Virus record (IMG/VR): IMGVR_UViG_3300032073_000004
Location: 1 to 64,000 of that record
Origin: a virus
DNA length: 64,000 nucleotides
Direction: 5' to 3' (one strand)
The notes beneath the pieces were generated by a model. It saw only the letters and a program-made list of their open reading frames with translations. It ran no database searches and was not told the origin of the DNA. Shown in pieces: positions 21,862 through 27,801 of this stretch; the stretch's first letter is position 1, and the number at the start of each line of letters is the position of its first letter. A program made the position numbers and the translations under genes.

Positions 21862-22212
21862 CTAAAACCTCTCTTTTATCTTCCTAGCTAACTCATCTAT
21901 ATCTTCCTGAAGTTCTTCTTCGAGATTGTCCCTCTCGTTCTCAAGAGCCCTTATGTCTTTTCTTATAGACTTTTGTCTCTCTTCTTCTTTTTCGAGTGTT
22001 GCAAGGGCGCTTCTGCTCACCTCTTCAATGGCGTCTTTGTTTGCTTTGTGAGACTCCTCAAGAGCTTTCTTATAATCTTCTCTCGTCTGCTGCATAGAAC
22101 CAAGAAGGGCAGCTATCTTGGAGCGGTAAAAAAAAGCACATACCAGCAACAGAACAACTACTGCTGGTATTTTCCAATGGTGCTTTAAAAATAAAATTAC
22201 CCTGCCTAACAT
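21862..22212 (-). CDS. Membrane-anchored coiled-coil protein, i-spanin-like
   Basis: The frame extends upstream to 22338, but the start is placed at ATG 22212 (MLGRVILFLKHHWKIPAVVV), which shares TGATG with the stop of the preceding gene; this gives 116 residues. The upstream extension would lie wholly inside that gene. One N-terminal transmembrane helix (residues about 11-30) is followed by a long charged coiled coil to the end (EEERQKSIRKDIRALENERD, LEEELQEDIDELARKIKERF). This is the layout of an inner-membrane spanin such as Rz. No separate lipoprotein Rz1 with a lipobox was found nearby, so the role stays tentative. Confidence 0.6.
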   Translation of the reverse strand: MLGRVILFLKHHWKIPAVVVLLLVCAFFYRSKIAALLGSMQQTREDYKKALEESHKANKDAIEEVSRSALATLEKEEERQKSIRKDIRALENERDNLEEELQEDIDELARKIKERF

Positions 22213-22451
22213 CACGCGCTTTTCCAAGCAACGGCTAAGTCTACTGCTGCTTGGCCACCAATGTAAACAAGCGAAATAGCTACCCAGTCGGACGACTGTA
22301 GGCCGCCTGTGTACAGAAGGGCAGAGCCAGTAAGCCATACCAAAAGTTTTCTGGATGTTACTTTGCTAATAATTTTATCAAGTGCTCCGCCTTTTGGCAG
22401 GGCTTTGTTCACCAACTTAGCGGGTGAGTCTGTCTTTTTTCTAGTTGCCAT
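22212..22451 (-). CDS. Small two-helix membrane protein, holin-like
   Basis: This 79-residue protein starts at ATG 22451 behind AAGGAGA. It has a basic N-terminus (MATRKKTDSPAKLVNKALPK) and two hydrophobic segments, LLVWLTGSALLYTGG (about 36-50) and WVAISLVYIGGQAAVDLAVAW (about 56-76). Size, charge and two membrane helices suit a class II-type holin. The two genes after it also look like envelope proteins. There is no sequence motif specific to holins, so this is context-based. Confidence 0.55.
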   Translation of the reverse strand: MATRKKTDSPAKLVNKALPKGGALDKIISKVTSRKLLVWLTGSALLYTGGLQSSDWVAISLVYIGGQAAVDLAVAWKSA

Positions 22452-22460
22452 ATTGTCTCC

Positions 22461-25400
22461 TTAGCATCTAACTTTTGCATATCCATTTTCTTTGGATATA
22501 TCTAGTGTCATATCAACGCAGTCTTTCAAGCTATCTAGATGAGAAATAAGGAACACTGTCTTAAACTGAGTCTTCACCATGTCTATAATTCTGATGAAGC
22601 CTTCCATGTTCTCTTCGTCTAAAGCCGTCCCTGGTTCATCCAGGATGAAAATATCTCCCTTTGGCAAGGACGAGACATTGAGCAATGCAAGTCTTATCGC
22701 CATAGAAGCTAACGTCTTTTCCGCGCCCGAACAGTTGTCGATAGGGCGTGGCTCATATGTTGGGTGCTTGATGTAAATGTCGAGCTTATTTTCGTCGTTT
22801 TCAAAAAACACCTCAAAGTCAACTACGTTTGCAAGAACTTTTGAAACTTCCTCATTGATGATGGGGAGCTTGTTCTTGATAATATTATATGAGATACCAT
22901 TCGTACTCATACTTTTCATAAACAAGTCATACGCAGAAAATTGTTTTCTACTGTCTGCCAGTTTTTCTTTCTGCTCAGTAAACATAACAGCTCTTTCCTC
23001 ATATGAGCCCAACTCTTTGTGAAGAGATATCAAGCTATCCTGACATTCCTCAATAAGCGCGTCAAAACGTTCTGACATGATTATAGCACCATTCTCTCTA
23101 CTTTTAAGTGAATTCAAGCTATCAACCATCTTTTTGTTTTTATTATATATTTCAACATCCTCTTCTAGTTTGCTAATGTGTTCCATCAGCTCTTTACTTT
23201 CGAGTTCCTGTTTAACGATGTTATCAGAATATTCAGATACGTTTTTCTGAAGTTTTTCCAACTTCTTTACGTCCTTGTCATGTTCCTTTACAATCTTGCT
23301 AGCCTTTTCTGCTTCGCATGCTTTTTGTTTCTTTGCTTTGCTTGCTATAAGTTCTTGGAATGTTTCAATTTGTCTTTCGAACTCACTCTTGTGATCTAGT
23401 TCTGCGCCGCACTCTGGACACTTTATCGTGTCGCTAGCGTTTTCTTGTTCTTCCAGAACTTTCTCAAGTTGCTTTTGCAACGAAAGAATATCTCCCTTTA
23501 GCTCCTCTGCTCGCGAAACTTTTCTCCTCATTTCAAAAGCATCGACACTATCTGTTTTTTCTTCTAAAACAACAATGTCTTTGAGGACACCTTCCTTGTC
23601 TAAACGCAGATTGCTTATCTCCTTCTCAAGATATAATAGATCATCACTTTTTTCTTTGAGTACGCCAAGAACGTTAGAGATGTTCATGAGGCTTGCGGGG
23701 ACGCTCTCTATCTCTCTGCGAATCTCTAAAATTTGCTTGTTAGTCTTTTCTTTCTTTTTTGTCAGACTCTTACATCTTTTATCTTGCTCTGATATCCGCT
23801 GCCTGACATCAGCTAGTGCTTCTCTGGACTGTTCTATCTCGGCGTCATAGTCAACGTTTTCCATAGTCTTGAGGTACCCCAAGAGTTCCTTTGCTTCATC
23901 CTTAGCGTGACGATACTTCATATCAAAAAGCTCAAGATCCAAAAACTTAGCTAGAATTTCTTTTCTTTTTGTATTTCCTTCCTCAACAAAGGCTAGTGAG
24001 CCCATCTGAGAAGCATACGATGTTAAAAGAAAATCATCCACTGAGCCAAAGCTTTTTCTGATGGCTTTGTCAGTTTGGTTTCTAGTGATCCCGTTTAATG
24101 ACTGCTCTTCCCCAGAAGCCAAGTCTACTTTGCTAAAATCTAAAATAACTCTTGCCTCTTTGGACTCTTTGCCGTATAGACGTTTAGTATACTTTTCTGT
24201 CCTTCTTCTGATCTTGTATTTGTTGTGGCCAACCGTTAAGCTTACAATACCTTCGGCATTGTCTTCGTTTTGGTTAACAACGTTAATATTCTTTCTGCTG
24301 CTCTTGCTAGTTGAATTATATAATGTATAAATAAAGCTATCAAAAATAGAAGACTTGCCAGAAAAGTTCTTTCCGAAAATTCCTACAACACCACTAAGTT
24401 TATCAAAGTTTATCTTGTTGCCCTTACCGTAGTTAAAATAATTCTTCCACTCGAAGCTATCGATCTTCCACCGAACATTGCGACTGATGTCTTCATTTTC
24501 TTCCACAATAGTATTAAACTTTTTATTAAGCTCATATACCTTTTTTAAGGTTTCTTCGTCGGTAGTATAATCCTCAAGATACTTTGATATAAACTTTTCT
24601 TGCACAGCGATGTCTCTCATGTTTTCATCTTCTGCAAAAATATTTCTATCGTCGTCCTGATATGATCCCCTAGAGGCGTCATTAAAGACAATGCTCTCTG
24701 GCTTGAAGCGAGAACGCGCTACATCAAGGGCCTTTCTCATAATGTCGATAGGCAATCTCGTCTTCGATTGTACTCGTAAGCGAGCGCCTTCTGGAACTTT
24801 TACTTTAGCTGGTATCTTTCCTCTTGCTGTCAGAGACAAAGTTACAAATGGCTTGGGGTTCGAAAACGCCATGTGTTTGCAAGTAAAGTCATCTTTTCCT
24901 TTGATGTTCCAAAGCAAATATCCTTTATCGTTAGTCTCTCCAAAGTTCTGCTGCACTGTAGATCCCGCATACCTAACACGACCCTCCATATCTAAAATCT
25001 GGTTTGTCTTGTGGATGTCTCCCAACATAGCATAGTCATACGGAGCGAACTCTGCAATATCTATGTCCCCATGTTCCATTTGCCAACCCAAATCTGTGCG
25101 GCAGCCTGAAACTGAGCCGTGGAAGAGGCAAATGTTCACAGTGTCATTGCTTGCTGGAACTTGCCATGCATCTCTGTCAAACACAGATAAAACACTCAAA
25201 GAAATATTTTCCGGCAGCACAATCTCTTCGTAGTCTCTATAGACGAATAAGTTTTCGTGCTTGAGAGCTGCAGCGATGGGAGAAACAGCATCCATGCGAA
25301 AGCTATTCTTTAGGTTGCCGTCATGATTGCCAAGAATGACGTGAGTTGGTGCGATGTCTGCCAAGTTGTTGAGGAACTCTCTGCACATCTCGACATACTC

Positions 25401-25565
25401 TGGGCTGATCTGTGTCTTTGTGTGGGCAATATCGCCACAGTGAACGATGTAATCTACCTTTTCTTTTCGCAAAGACTCATACATCTCTTCAAAAACTTGT
25501 CTATATTCTTTATGATATTTTAAATTGCGGATGTGTGTATCCGCAAAATGTGCAATTTTAACCAT
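22461..25565 (-). CDS. Fused SbcD-SbcC (Mre11-Rad50 / T4 gp47-gp46) nuclease-ATPase
   Basis: This 1034-residue protein carries both halves of the Mre11-Rad50 machine in one chain. The nuclease half (about 1-350) has the metallophosphatase motifs FADTHIR (Asp9, His11), HCGDIAH (Asp45, His48), LGNHD (Asn80, His81, Asp82), LFHGS (His149) and GDIH (182-185). The Rad50 half starts near 367 and has Walker A GIFGKNFSGKSS (396-406). Long coiled coils follow, with a zinc hook IKCPECG (Cys716, Cys719) at their apex. The chain ends with the signature NCSGAEKTLAS (944-953) and Walker B IFILDEPGTALDEEN (972-986). In T4 these are two proteins needed for recombination-dependent replication and host DNA breakdown. 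There is no stop or frameshift at the junction. It starts at ATG 25565, after the primase stop. Confidence 0.95.
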   Translation of the reverse strand: MVKIAHFADTHIRNLKYHKEYRQVFEEMYESLRKEKVDYIVHCGDIAHTKTQISPEYVEMCREFLNNLADIAPTHVILGNHDGNLKNSFRMDAVSPIAAALKHENLFVYRDYEEIVLPENISLSVLSVFDRDAWQVPASNDTVNICLFHGSVSGCRTDLGWQMEHGDIDIAEFAPYDYAMLGDIHKTNQILDMEGRVRYAGSTVQQNFGETNDKGYLLWNIKGKDDFTCKHMAFSNPKPFVTLSLTARGKIPAKVKVPEGARLRVQSKTRLPIDIMRKALDVARSRFKPESIVFNDASRGSYQDDDRNIFAEDENMRDIAVQEKFISKYLEDYTTDEETLKKVYELNKKFNTIVEENEDISRNVRWKIDSFEWKNYFNYGKGNKINFDKLSGVVGIFGKNFSGKSSIFDSFIYTLYNSTSKSSRKNINVVNQNEDNAEGIVSLTVGHNKYKIRRRTEKYTKRLYGKESKEARVILDFSKVDLASGEEQSLNGITRNQTDKAIRKSFGSVDDFLLTSYASQMGSLAFVEEGNTKRKEILAKFLDLELFDMKYRHAKDEAKELLGYLKTMENVDYDAEIEQSREALADVRQRISEQDKRCKSLTKKKEKTNKQILEIRREIESVPASLMNISNVLGVLKEKSDDLLYLEKEISNLRLDKEGVLKDIVVLEEKTDSVDAFEMRRKVSRAEELKGDILSLQKQLEKVLEEQENASDTIKCPECGAELDHKSEFERQIETFQELIASKAKKQKACEAEKASKIVKEHDKDVKKLEKLQKNVSEYSDNIVKQELESKELMEHISKLEEDVEIYNKNKKMVDSLNSLKSRENGAIIMSERFDALIEECQDSLISLHKELGSYEERAVMFTEQKEKLADSRKQFSAYDLFMKSMSTNGISYNIIKNKLPIINEEVSKVLANVVDFEVFFENDENKLDIYIKHPTYEPRPIDNCSGAEKTLASMAIRLALLNVSSLPKGDIFILDEPGTALDEENMEGFIRIIDMVKTQFKTVFLISHLDSLKDCVDMTLDISKENGYAKVRC

Positions 25566-25569
25566 TCAT

Positions 25570-26532
25570 CTATCCTCTTAGTGTGGAGATTTTCTCCCGA
25601 AGCAAACCCGTGGTATTACTAATAAGCTTCGCTTTTTGTTTCCTACTATTAAACTCTTCCTTCGTCATGCATCCAACATCTTCAAAGCCGGAAACATCGA
25701 TCTTAAAAACCTCTATACCATATGATAACATATTTTTGATGATTTTTATAGTCTTTTTTTCGGCATCGGCGTCGAGAGCCATGTACACTGGGGAGTCGTT
25801 TTCTACGATCTTTTGAAAGACTGGACTCTTTTCTGTTAATGTCGATCCCAACAAAGGTATTGCATTTCCTGCCTTTATAGCATCGAACACTCCTTCTACC
25901 AAGGTAATATCCTCGTGCCAGTCAACAAAAAGTTCGTTAAACACAAGCTTTTTGTTCGTTGGGGGATTTTTATACTTTATCCAGTCTCCGCTGTAAGTTC
26001 TCGCAACGAAAAAGTCTACAAGACCTTCCGTGTTAAATGATGGTATGATTATGCGACCTTCGTATTCTCCTGTGTCACAGTACCCAATCTTCCATCTTAA
26101 TATATCTTCCTGGGTTATGCCTCTTTGTTTCAAGTAGTTTATTGCAGCAAACGACGTTGGCTTTCTTTTCCTGTTCGCCAATGGAGCATACTCAGTGGGC
26201 AAATTGATATTTTCTTCTTGCTCTTCTTCTTGCTCTTTCCCCATGATAATATCTTTAAGGGAGCGAGGCACCTCTGACATATCGTGTTCGTTTTCGAATT
26301 CTTGCCACTTGGTCTTTTGGGAGAATGAGCCCCAGCGTCGGACAAGATGATATAAGCTCTTTCCCCGATAATCACATATCCAACACTTAAACATATCCAA
26401 AGAAAGGTTCACCGACAGCTTCTTTTTGTGGTGTTTGCAAGAAGGGCAGTAAAACAAACTCTCCTCGCCGGAGTTGTAATAAGACCCTAATATCTCTTTT
26501 AGAATTTTAATTTTTTCACTTTTTACAAGCAA
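25570..26532 (-). CDS. DnaG-like DNA primase
   Basis: The protein has a CHC2-type zinc ribbon, LFYCPSCKHHKKKLSVNL...MFKCWICDYRGKS, followed by a linker and a TOPRIM domain (TLVEGVFDAIKAG with Glu-Gly-x-x-Asp, then YMALDADAE with Asp-x-Asp). It should make RNA primers for lagging-strand synthesis; T4's equivalent is gp61. The frame opens at TTG 26568, inside the upstream gene. A second TTG at 26532 has AGGAG five bases before it and follows the upstream stop, so I chose it (320 residues); the start is uncertain. No helicase domain is fused and none is adjacent. The length is short for DnaG because the helicase-interaction end is absent. Confidence 0.9.
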   Translation of the reverse strand: MLVKSEKIKILKEILGSYYNSGEESLFYCPSCKHHKKKLSVNLSLDMFKCWICDYRGKSLYHLVRRWGSFSQKTKWQEFENEHDMSEVPRSLKDIIMGKEQEEEQEENINLPTEYAPLANRKRKPTSFAAINYLKQRGITQEDILRWKIGYCDTGEYEGRIIIPSFNTEGLVDFFVARTYSGDWIKYKNPPTNKKLVFNELFVDWHEDITLVEGVFDAIKAGNAIPLLGSTLTEKSPVFQKIVENDSPVYMALDADAEKKTIKIIKNMLSYGIEVFKIDVSGFEDVGCMTKEEFNSRKQKAKLISNTTGLLREKISTLRG

Positions 26533-26540
26533 ATTATCTC

Positions 26541-27278
26541 CTACTCTTGGATAATTAAGTTTTTGCAAATATCTTTTTTATAGTTCGAGAGGCTATCAAT
26601 TAGTTCTCTTTTTACCTTAAAGTTGTGACCATTATTTTTGAGTACGAGCTCTTTGTCCACTCCGTAATTTATAGTCAACATGTCTCTATGTCCCTCAATA
26701 GGCTTCAGGCCCTTGTGTAGGCCGTGTGTCATCCCCACGAACACTTGCCCCTTTGGTCCAACAATACGCCTCTCTAAGCCTGGGTATTGTTTTTTAACAT
26801 CCCTATCTGTCTTTCTATACATGGTTAGATCATCCAAATAGACATCGTTGCTTCCCTCTATGTAGGTAAAGGGGCCGTTCTTTTCTGTAACCTCGTTTAG
26901 GTAAATAAAAATCTTTAAAAAGTTTCCAGAAGTTTTTTCGAGAGTTCCGAGGTTCTTATCTCTGTGAAAGAGTGCCACTCCCTCGGCGGGTTGTTTGGTG
27001 AATTTTGTTCTTCTTAGATTTCCCGATCCTAAATAAAAGGGCCTGCCAGAAAAAAACAAAGAAGGAATCTCAAGAAAGTCATCTCTTAGGGCTAATTCCA
27101 TACACTCATCTATCAGCCACGGTTGTGCTATTTTAGTATAATGCTTATCTTTTTGCGATAGTCCTTTTTTTTGCTTTTCTCTTTTCGAGATTATCTCAAC
27201 AAGCTTATCTATGATCTTGTCTTCAACTTTAATATCGGAATATGCATATCCGTGTTTTTTAAACTTTTCTATATCCAT
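26541..27278 (-). CDS. PhyH-like 2-oxoglutarate/Fe(II) dioxygenase
   Basis: This 245-residue protein has a facial triad pattern: ALFHRDKN (His105-x-Asp107) and THGLHKG (His185, perhaps His188). Arg198 in GHRDMLTINY is positioned to bind 2-oxoglutarate. The strands IFIYLNEVTEKNGPFTYIEGS and GLHKGLKPIEGHRDMLTINY are typical of phytanoyl-CoA dioxygenase-type hydroxylases, which are frequent in aquatic phages. The substrate is unknown: DNA base modification, a tRNA, a protein or a small metabolite are all possible. It sits between the resolvase and primase genes, with two bases to the former, so a nucleic-acid link is a fair guess but not shown. Confidence 0.8.
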   Translation of the reverse strand: MDIEKFKKHGYAYSDIKVEDKIIDKLVEIISKREKQKKGLSQKDKHYTKIAQPWLIDECMELALRDDFLEIPSLFFSGRPFYLGSGNLRRTKFTKQPAEGVALFHRDKNLGTLEKTSGNFLKIFIYLNEVTEKNGPFTYIEGSNDVYLDDLTMYRKTDRDVKKQYPGLERRIVGPKGQVFVGMTHGLHKGLKPIEGHRDMLTINYGVDKELVLKNNGHNFKVKRELIDSLSNYKKDICKNLIIQE

Positions 27279-27279
27279 A

Positions 27280-27801
27280 TTAATTTTCTTTCTCCAAAAA
27301 CACTTTTCCAGCCCTTGCTATAACAATGCTGTCAGCTCTATCATAGACCCCTGGCTTGAAATTACCAAACTTTGTATATTCTACCACGAACGTAGGCTCA
27401 TTGTCAAGCAAAAAGTTAACAACCTTCTCTTTTGCGTTTTCGCCACGCAACACCTTGATACCACAGGACTTTCTAGCAGAAGAAGCAGAAAGGTACTCTG
27501 GTTTTATATTTAAGTTCTCAAAAACCATCCACGAAACGATCCCATTAAATCTACTGAGAGTGGATAGCGTTTTTGCCGAAGAAAAGCCACTTCGAAAAGA
27601 TTGTAACGACTGCTCCACAAAAACGTGCTTGATGTCTTTTGTCTTGACCAGTTCTTTTATCTTCTCGTGGACAAATTTAGCCTTCTCGAAGATGTCTTTG
27701 AACTTTCTTGTGTCCCAAGCATCATTGCAAATTATGTTTCCGCTATCATCCAAAACTGTTGCTCCGGTGATGCTCGTGCTAATATCTAAACCTAAAATCA
27801 T
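27280..27801 (-). CDS. RuvC-like Holliday junction resolvase
   Basis: This 173-residue RNase H-fold protein starts MILGLDISTSITGATVLDD, with Asp6 as first acidic residue. It continues with HVFVEQSLQSF (Glu63) and ends with YDRADSIVIARAG (Asp154, Asp157), the four carboxylates expected of RuvC-type resolvases. SARKSCGIKVLRGENAKEKV is also like the RuvC region that contacts DNA. In phages such enzymes resolve branched DNA before packaging, replacing T4's endonuclease VII. It overlaps the upstream structural gene by four bases, so the resolvase is expressed with late structural genes, which fits that job. Confidence 0.85.
   Translation of the reverse strand: MILGLDISTSITGATVLDDSGNIICNDAWDTRKFKDIFEKAKFVHEKIKELVKTKDIKHVFVEQSLQSFRSGFSSAKTLSTLSRFNGIVSWMVFENLNIKPEYLSASSARKSCGIKVLRGENAKEKVVNFLLDNEPTFVVEYTKFGNFKPGVYDRADSIVIARAGKVFLEKEN

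Follow-up and report, generated by a model that had tools for sequence, protein, structure and literature searches.

Single-chain fusions of the nuclease Mre11 (SbcD, gp47) with the ATPase Rad50 (SbcC, gp46) have been in print since 2011, when they were described for Mimivirus R555 and twelve further sources as well as in marine metagenomes (Yoshida, Claverie, and Ogata 2011; PMC3175470). That report names phage, bacteria, plasmids and eukaryotes as known sources, and describes R555 kin as abundant in aquatic viral metagenomes, with a partly phage origin suspected by the authors. Here we describe such a gene on the minus strand at 22461..25565 of a 64,000-nucleotide stretch (hereafter the window; positions 1 to 64,000) of the IMG/VR virus record IMGVR_UViG_3300032073_000004. 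The whole record has 118,830 bases and carries T4-type portal and large terminase genes near the fusion gene. We read the gene product as a complete Mre11-Rad50 (SbcCD/gp47-gp46 type) DNA-end-processing machine in one chain, belonging to the R555-like kind of viral fusion (probability approximately 0.86). Since this kind of fusion was already described in PMC3175470, the main point is an ordinary one.

Like R555 and the other published fusions, the window protein is one chain with the nuclease first and the ATPase second, and it has the capping and helix-loop-helix regions that most of them retain. R555 differs in its 1351 residues, its coiled coil as long as that of cellular homologues and its origin in a giant virus of amoebae (PMC3175470), whereas the window protein has 1034 residues and comes from a tailed phage whose portal gene is of T4 type. 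Microcystis phage Mel-JY01 encodes a 1066-residue one-chain fusion beside a primase gene (WWT39521.1), 29% identical to the window protein over the whole length. Mel-JY01 differs in being an isolated cyanophage whose fusion has the hook CKHC, and the product name, 'AAA domain containing protein', covers only the ATPase. E. coli SbcCD (7yzo, 6s85), which presumably does the same work, shares the fold of the ATPase half, and the fold of the nuclease half is shared via S. aureus SbcD (7dog), but SbcCD consists of two chains. SbcC alone has 1048 residues compared to approximately 670 for the corresponding part of the window protein, so the E. coli coiled coil is longer. E. coli SbcCD has the canonical motif V. 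T4-type gp46/gp47, as annotated in Synechococcus phage S-SKS1 and Sinorhizobium phage phiM12, provides the same two phage recombination activities, but from two genes with small genes between them; the nuclease has GHxH and is 24-25% identical in the matched part. The initial annotation had stated that the two proteins are separate chains in T4, bacteria and eukaryotes. This holds for the T4-type phages, whereas the fusions published from phage, bacteria, plasmids and eukaryotes are known exceptions to the rule (PMC3175470).

Domain organization and predicted structure

The gene is an uninterrupted 1034-residue frame, as the initial annotation had claimed, with an ATG start and no internal stop. 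The locus is thus one frame and lacks the two separate genes of the T4 gp46/gp47 form; an intron or intein in the gene was ruled out by the uninterrupted frame. Family profiles recognized both halves: Pfam assigned Metallophos (E 3.2e-13, residues 3-185) and AAA_23 (E 7.9e-10, residues 374-611), and PHROGs assigned the SbcD-like phrog_100 (E 1.7e-35, residues 1-265) and the SbcC-like phrog_77 (E 6.8e-61, residues 313-1032). A phmmer search of solved structures matched the first half to SbcD/Mre11 chains and the second half to Rad50 and SbcC chains. These profiles, the predicted structure and many relatives support the covalent SbcD-SbcC (Mre11-Rad50) fusion proposed earlier.

The calcineurin-like phosphoesterase (nuclease) domain occupies approximately residues 1-235 (24861..25565; this and all following features of the gene are on the minus strand), as indicated by PF00149, superposition on 7dog_A and conservation in 200 unique fusions. 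Its motif residues are D9, H11, D45, H48, N80, H81, H149, D183 and H185, and motifs I-IV (DxH, GDxx, GNHD, H) fit canonical SbcD/Mre11. Between nuclease and ATPase lies a region matching the Mre11 cap and helix-loop-helix. The capping region, approximately residues 236-310 (24636..24860), was modelled as strand-helix-strand (strands 262-267 and 291-296, helix 273-287), and 7dog_A matched nuclease and cap together. The helix-loop-helix, residues 316-357 (24495..24620; model helices 319-333 and 337-357), was assigned the role of the Mre11 Rad50-binding region after T. maritima Mre11 as described in PMC3175470. The joint between the halves comprises residues 358-365 (24471..24494), with R362-N363 inside and W366 just after, as judged from conservation in the 200 fusions.

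The N-terminal ATPase lobe of Rad50, residues 366-545 (23931..24470), was recognized by AAA_23 and by superposition on SbcC. It contains the Walker A motif GKNFSGKS at residues 398-405 (24351..24374), where GK[ST] is present in 200/200 unique fusions. The zinc-hook motif CPEC, residues 716-719 (23409..23420), lies at the coiled-coil tip in a low-confidence model turn (716-722) between long helices. The ATP-binding cassette (ABC) signature SGAEKT is at residues 946-951 (22713..22730), with SG in 185 of the 200 fusions and the remaining 15 gapped, and the Walker B motif IFILDE is at residues 972-977 (22635..22652), with DE in 184 and the remaining 16 gapped. In its Walker A and Walker B motifs, ABC signature, long coiled coil and CXXC tip hook, the window protein fits SbcC/Rad50, and the motifs lie where the initial annotation had placed them.

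An AlphaFold model of the window monomer, made with an alignment of 59 sequences, had a mean predicted local distance difference test (pLDDT) score of 83.9. Residues 366-1034 superposed on E. coli SbcC 7yzo_D (Z 31.1, 352 residues aligned, 3.4 Å) and residues 1-296 on S. aureus SbcD 7dog_A (Z 24.7, 276 residues aligned, 3.2 Å). Foldseek comparison with viral models (BFVD) ranked giant-virus proteins first, aligned along the whole chain, with Tupanvirus at the top (E 3.5e-63). Harvfovirus, Yasminevirus and other giant-virus proteins were further matches, as were the Tenacibaculum phages pT24 and PTm1 with chains of approximately 1310 residues. Among the best 60 of 105 distinct PDB sequences matched by a profile of 59 relatives, none was a one-chain fusion by name.

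The fusion in related contigs

Separate nuclease and ATPase genes could be joined by an artefact of assembly or sequencing, and Listeria phage LMTA-57 may be such a case. In that phage, nuclease and ATPase lie in one 1009-residue frame (L008 2419-5448; L numbers denote our sequences), whereas its near relative A511 has two genes (L332 2827-5857), indicating that false or chance joins can occur; the LMTA-57 form is either a recent chance fusion or a sequencing error. For the window gene, however, a second IMG/VR contig, IMGVR_UViG_3300032011_000001 (158,153 bases), was 100% identical over 13,102 bases around the gene, although it may share the sample of the window. IMG/VR was scanned with an alignment of three fusions, and the best 80 of 588 relatives were fetched; a simple overlap test found one frame in 79/80, and the exception, L014, passed a profile test. 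Since ranking by full-length matches favours fusions, the scan was repeated with the nuclease half alone. The best 80 of 587 relatives then comprised 73 full fusions in one frame, 6 fused to the end of the fetched DNA and 1 ending inside the nuclease. All 79 evaluable loci were thus of the one-chain form, there was no two-gene locus, and no stop codon or frameshift was found at the joint in these related genomes, all close to the queries, as in the first scan; two-chain forms at a greater distance would rank too low to be included. The one-chain form is not rare: nearly every near relative found carries it.

The profile test, which used separate nuclease, ATPase-N and ATPase-C profiles, was applied to 246 sequences (first scans and named records, with duplicates and the window included). 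All three parts lay in one frame in 227, nuclease and ATPase-N did so in 15, and neither arrangement was found in 4. Among the 15 partial cases, 14 reach the end of the fetched DNA and L148 breaks in the coiled coil. The 4 failing sequences were L002, L005, L006 and L008, the last being the Listeria case, whose nuclease was missed by the profile. For conservation, we used 200 unique fused proteins, the window protein among them; as these were chosen as fused, they measure conservation and not the share of fusions, and since the scans favour relatives of the window, Mel-JY01 and L003, proportions are not a census. The joint sequence is conserved among the 200, although the 60 of them aligned with the window protein are only 22-50% identical to it. 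Given the identical second contig and the 79 fused loci, we do not regard the fusion as an assembly artefact; to judge from the sequences of the relatives, that explanation is effectively refuted and its chance is close to nil.

Interruptions were seen elsewhere in the set. In the huge-phage assembly LR756508 (L002 4944-9169), the fusion is broken soon after GDIHK by a 305-residue frame with a TnsA-like endonuclease domain. A search for group I introns gave no Rfam family at the gathering cut-off in L001, L002, L003, L005 and L006; at E up to 1, L002 5500-6800 had only one sub-threshold match (E 0.4, an unrelated small nucleolar RNA family) and L005 5600-7300 had none. In Yersinia phage TG1, a homing endonuclease gene separates the two annotated parts of gp47 (L334 3151-4954).

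Nuclease active site

All phosphoesterase motifs of SbcD/Mre11 had been listed for the window protein. Their places were right, but the fifth motif, residues 182-185 (25011..25022), reads GDIH and not the standard GHxH, so that in the column alignment Asp stands where two-chain relatives have His. The column of D183 holds His (GHxH) in 8/8 aligned two-chain phage nucleases, and GHIH was found in the translations of three more nucleases (SNUABM_5, LR756502 and MT837014). Of the 200 unique fusions, 200 have D45 and H149 as well as both GDxH residues, D183 and H185; D9/H11 are present in 198 (2 gaps), and H48 and N80-H81 in 199 each. Mimivirus R555 is reported to have GDxxH, and Asp at the position of P. 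furiosus Mre11 His206 (PMC3175470); the window letters GDIAH and GDIH match both. With GDIH instead of GHxH, the window protein was filed under the R555 kind and not under canonical SbcD/Mre11. The one-frame protein of Listeria phage LMTA-57 retains GHYH; GDxH therefore marks the lineage and not fusion as such.

The uniform split between GDxH in the fusions and GHxH in the aligned two-chain phages may also be taken to mean that Asp for His leaves the nuclease half weak or inactive, with tethering and clamping of DNA ends as the main function of the protein. We consider this very unlikely. An inactive site would be expected to decay, whereas the remaining motif residues are retained in nearly all 200 fusions, and Asp can bind metal.

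Joint between the halves

In the AlphaFold model, approximately 7 residues separate the end of the second Rad50-binding helix (357) from the first ATPase strand (365). Among the 200 fusions, R362 is present in 183, N363 in 181 and W366 in 194, and the joint length is nearly constant: 115/200 rows lack residue 359, and an insert after 358 is confined to a single row. PMC3175470 puts the distance from the Mre11 end to the Rad50 start in T. maritima at approximately 28 Å and proposes a linker of 9-12 residues. A joint at or below this length suggests, on the model, that each nuclease arm and the coiled-coil root to which it binds belong to the same chain. The earlier proposal that the fusion constrains how the nuclease is placed fits such a short conserved joint; that it fixes stoichiometry is trivially true of one chain.

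The fused chain might instead be only a precursor: cleavage by a protease of phage or host, or translation from an internal start, would give nuclease and ATPase as separate chains, to be assembled in the conventional way. Separation is evidently tolerated in the lineage, in which a relative branch (L005/L352-L431) works with two chains, and codon 354 of the window gene, within the second Rad50-binding helix, is a GTG. Near the joint of the window gene, however, there is no ATG in frame, nor is a clear ribosome site visible by eye ahead of the GTG. Met occurs in at most 8/200 rows at any of positions 358-370; outside this stretch it is commoner, at residues 332 (53 rows) and 333 (52 rows) of the helix region and at 376 (115 rows), just past the first ATPase strand. 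The R-N-x-x-W pattern of the joint is conserved, whereas cleavage spacers often vary. We therefore give a precursor little chance.

Proposed mechanism

As a working machine, two copies of the chain would most likely pair via their nuclease domains, ATPase heads and coiled-coil hook, forming a two-nuclease, two-ATPase body as in SbcCD. ATP binding and hydrolysis would gate the access of DNA to the nuclease, with the short joint making each nuclease arm bind the coiled-coil root of its own chain. We infer that such an enzyme would trim or cut broken and hairpin ends and thereby feed the recombination-dependent replication of the phage. Several points weigh against this reading. The monomer model has a predicted template modelling score (pTM) of 0.51 and is silent on dimers, and the likeness to R555 was taken from letters stated in PMC3175470 and not from an alignment. 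The departure of motif V from canonical Mre11 could mean an altered nuclease chemistry. The approximately 7 modelled residues of the joint, set against the estimate of 9-12 in PMC3175470, may mean that in-chain binding is tight or that the heads are arranged otherwise. As one gene fixes the stoichiometry, such fusions would be handy for structural work on the movement of nuclease and ATPase heads.

A two-gene branch with the cut inside Mre11

A quick tree was made from nuclease and head segments without the coiled coil; SNUABM_5 was left out of the trees because its 725-residue neighbour has no detected Rad50 segment. The fusions and the 8 two-chain phages fell on opposite sides of a starred branch. 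Two genes are present in the huge-phage branch L005, L006 and L352-L431, whose contigs reach 304 kb, many being shorter. Its nuclease, mostly 259-281 residues long, ends near window residue 250 and has GDIH in 74/74. Its Rad50, mostly of 790-814 residues, lies 1.0-2.4 kb beyond the nuclease; within its open frame, the ATPase begins at residue 134-158 in most cases. The moved cut was present in 74/74 loci with both genes in view, and Rad50 only was seen in 6/80. L005 (4992-9528) as an interrupted fusion was rejected, as it belongs to this branch with its moved boundary. In hhalign comparisons, the extra N-terminus of the branch Rad50 aligned with window residues 256-360, which hold the remainder of the cap and the helix-loop-helix (probability 95.5-96.8%; E 1e-8 to 1e-10 for one comparison). 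A model of the branch Rad50 has strand-helix-strand, two helices and then the first ATPase strand, as in the window protein; confidence is low over its 17 N-terminal residues and in parts of the cap. Six fused relatives (window included) were among its 30 alignment rows, so that the model does not stand independently of the fusions.

A 286 kb contig of an uncultured Bacteroidales metagenome-assembled genome (MAG) has the same cut, with the genes approximately 12 kb apart and in reversed order (L344 5992-6825, L349 1393-3771); its nuclease (L344) has GHIH instead of GDIH.

A further quick tree, made for the two-gene branch, held a chosen and a random part of the fusions (33/65 dereplicated rows). 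In it, the fused L003, on a long branch, stood beside the two-gene branch with support 95, and with 82 in a second tree, while a topology with all fusions in a single clade remained acceptable in approximately unbiased (AU) tests (p 0.48 and 0.45). As both topologies are left by these tests, re-splitting would rest on gene architecture and not on the tree: renewed splitting of a fused ancestor is the simplest route to a cut inside Mre11. If so, the GHIH copy of the Bacteroidales MAG needs a reversal or another history. We met no report of an Mre11 gene cut inside the cap in the open literature, most subscription journals being outside the search.

Variation of the coiled-coil tip

Hook types were assigned by pattern in residues 641-820, by which single rows can be mistyped. 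Of 190 unique judged proteins (10/200 were too short), 126 had CXXC, 52 PC-x6-C, 6 PC-x7-C, 4 C-x-C and 2 neither, giving non-CXXC tips in 64/190. Across the 52 tips of the x6 type, the positions P, C, G, [FY], C and [KR] are invariant, and the F and I that follow are absent from one and two rows, respectively. The consensus of this tip is PCGxx[FY]xxC[KR]F; the variation extends across L009-L245 (e.g. L035 6001-9132). The longer motif may bind zinc. On the quick tree that sets the fusions apart from the two-chain phages, hook types need 9-10 changes; if only starred branches are counted, 4 changes are still required for CXXC and 6 for C-x6/7-C. The neighbour of the window (CPEC) has C-x6-C both in this tree (L017) and in a later one (L060). 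Yeast Rad50 with the MukB hinge replacing its hook is reported to be functional (PMC6969161), which makes a changeable tip plausible. No report of a C-x6-C Rad50 hook was met in the open literature searched in the same way.

A history that would join these observations is that the one-chain form is ancestral and the joint a working part; that one huge-phage branch was later re-split inside Mre11, leaving the Rad50-binding helices on Rad50; and that the tip was swapped repeatedly between CXXC and PCGxx[FY]xxC[KR]F, a second metal-hook design. We offer this history tentatively, at somewhat less than even odds. The hook variants and the moved boundary are two side observations worth specialist attention, and such natural variants let one ask which Mre11-Rad50 connections are needed.

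Distribution among phages, plasmids and cellular genomes

A tblastn search of 50,697 phage records matched 468, of which the best 60 are considered here. At least 80% of the length was covered in 4 of these 60: Mel-JY01, LR756508 (in two frames) and two LMTA-57 records. The huge-phage assembly LR756501 has a 1202-residue one-chain form, and LR756503 matches alike. Among the matches listed, only Mel-JY01 and a few huge-phage assemblies are named phage records with the form of this lineage. Plasmids were rejected as the home of the fusion: 4 out of 72,556 records gave a match, in no case covering more than 80% of the length. In cellular genomes, 80 stretches matched, and 12 were relatives. Five of these (L337, L338, L340-L342) are full fusions; the MAG contigs that carry them measure 7.8-24 kb and may be binned phage contigs. 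L343 runs into the contig end, L344, L345 and L347 are GHIH nucleases, L346 had no profile match, and L348 is a fragment. In a WOR-3 MAG chromosome record (L339 6001-8058), a copy runs into a stretch of N and then other genes; erroneous scaffolding of a phage contig into the MAG is the probable cause.

Gene neighbourhood

Directly upstream of the fusion on the same strand is a primase gene (25570..26568, minus strand; phrog_47 DNA primase, E 6.1e-39), followed by a RuvC-like Holliday junction resolvase gene (27280..27801, minus strand; phrog_159, E 1.7e-8). Among the 80 loci, of which 69 had more than 1.2 kb of flank upstream and 74 downstream, a primase relative was found upstream on the same strand in 70/80 and a RuvC-like resolvase in 62/80; a large terminase was present in 62/80. 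The row of primase, resolvase and terminase is the setting of a replication-recombination enzyme, like that of gp46/gp47. Many contigs, a conserved joint, a diagnostic active-site letter and this conserved row speak for a phage home of the fusion, for which the evidence is fuller than in PMC3175470, where only a few long environmental sequences confirmed the fusion.

Between the primase and resolvase genes, the window has a PhyH-like (phytanoyl-CoA dioxygenase, E 7.6e-5) gene at 26541-27278, with relatives in 0/80 loci. On the downstream side, 22212-22451 encodes a 79-residue protein, relatives of which adjoin the fusion in 73/80 loci. The stretch 21862-22338 matches an Rz-like spanin (phrog_1403, E 4e-4), and together with the gene for the 79-residue protein it possibly forms a lysis cassette.

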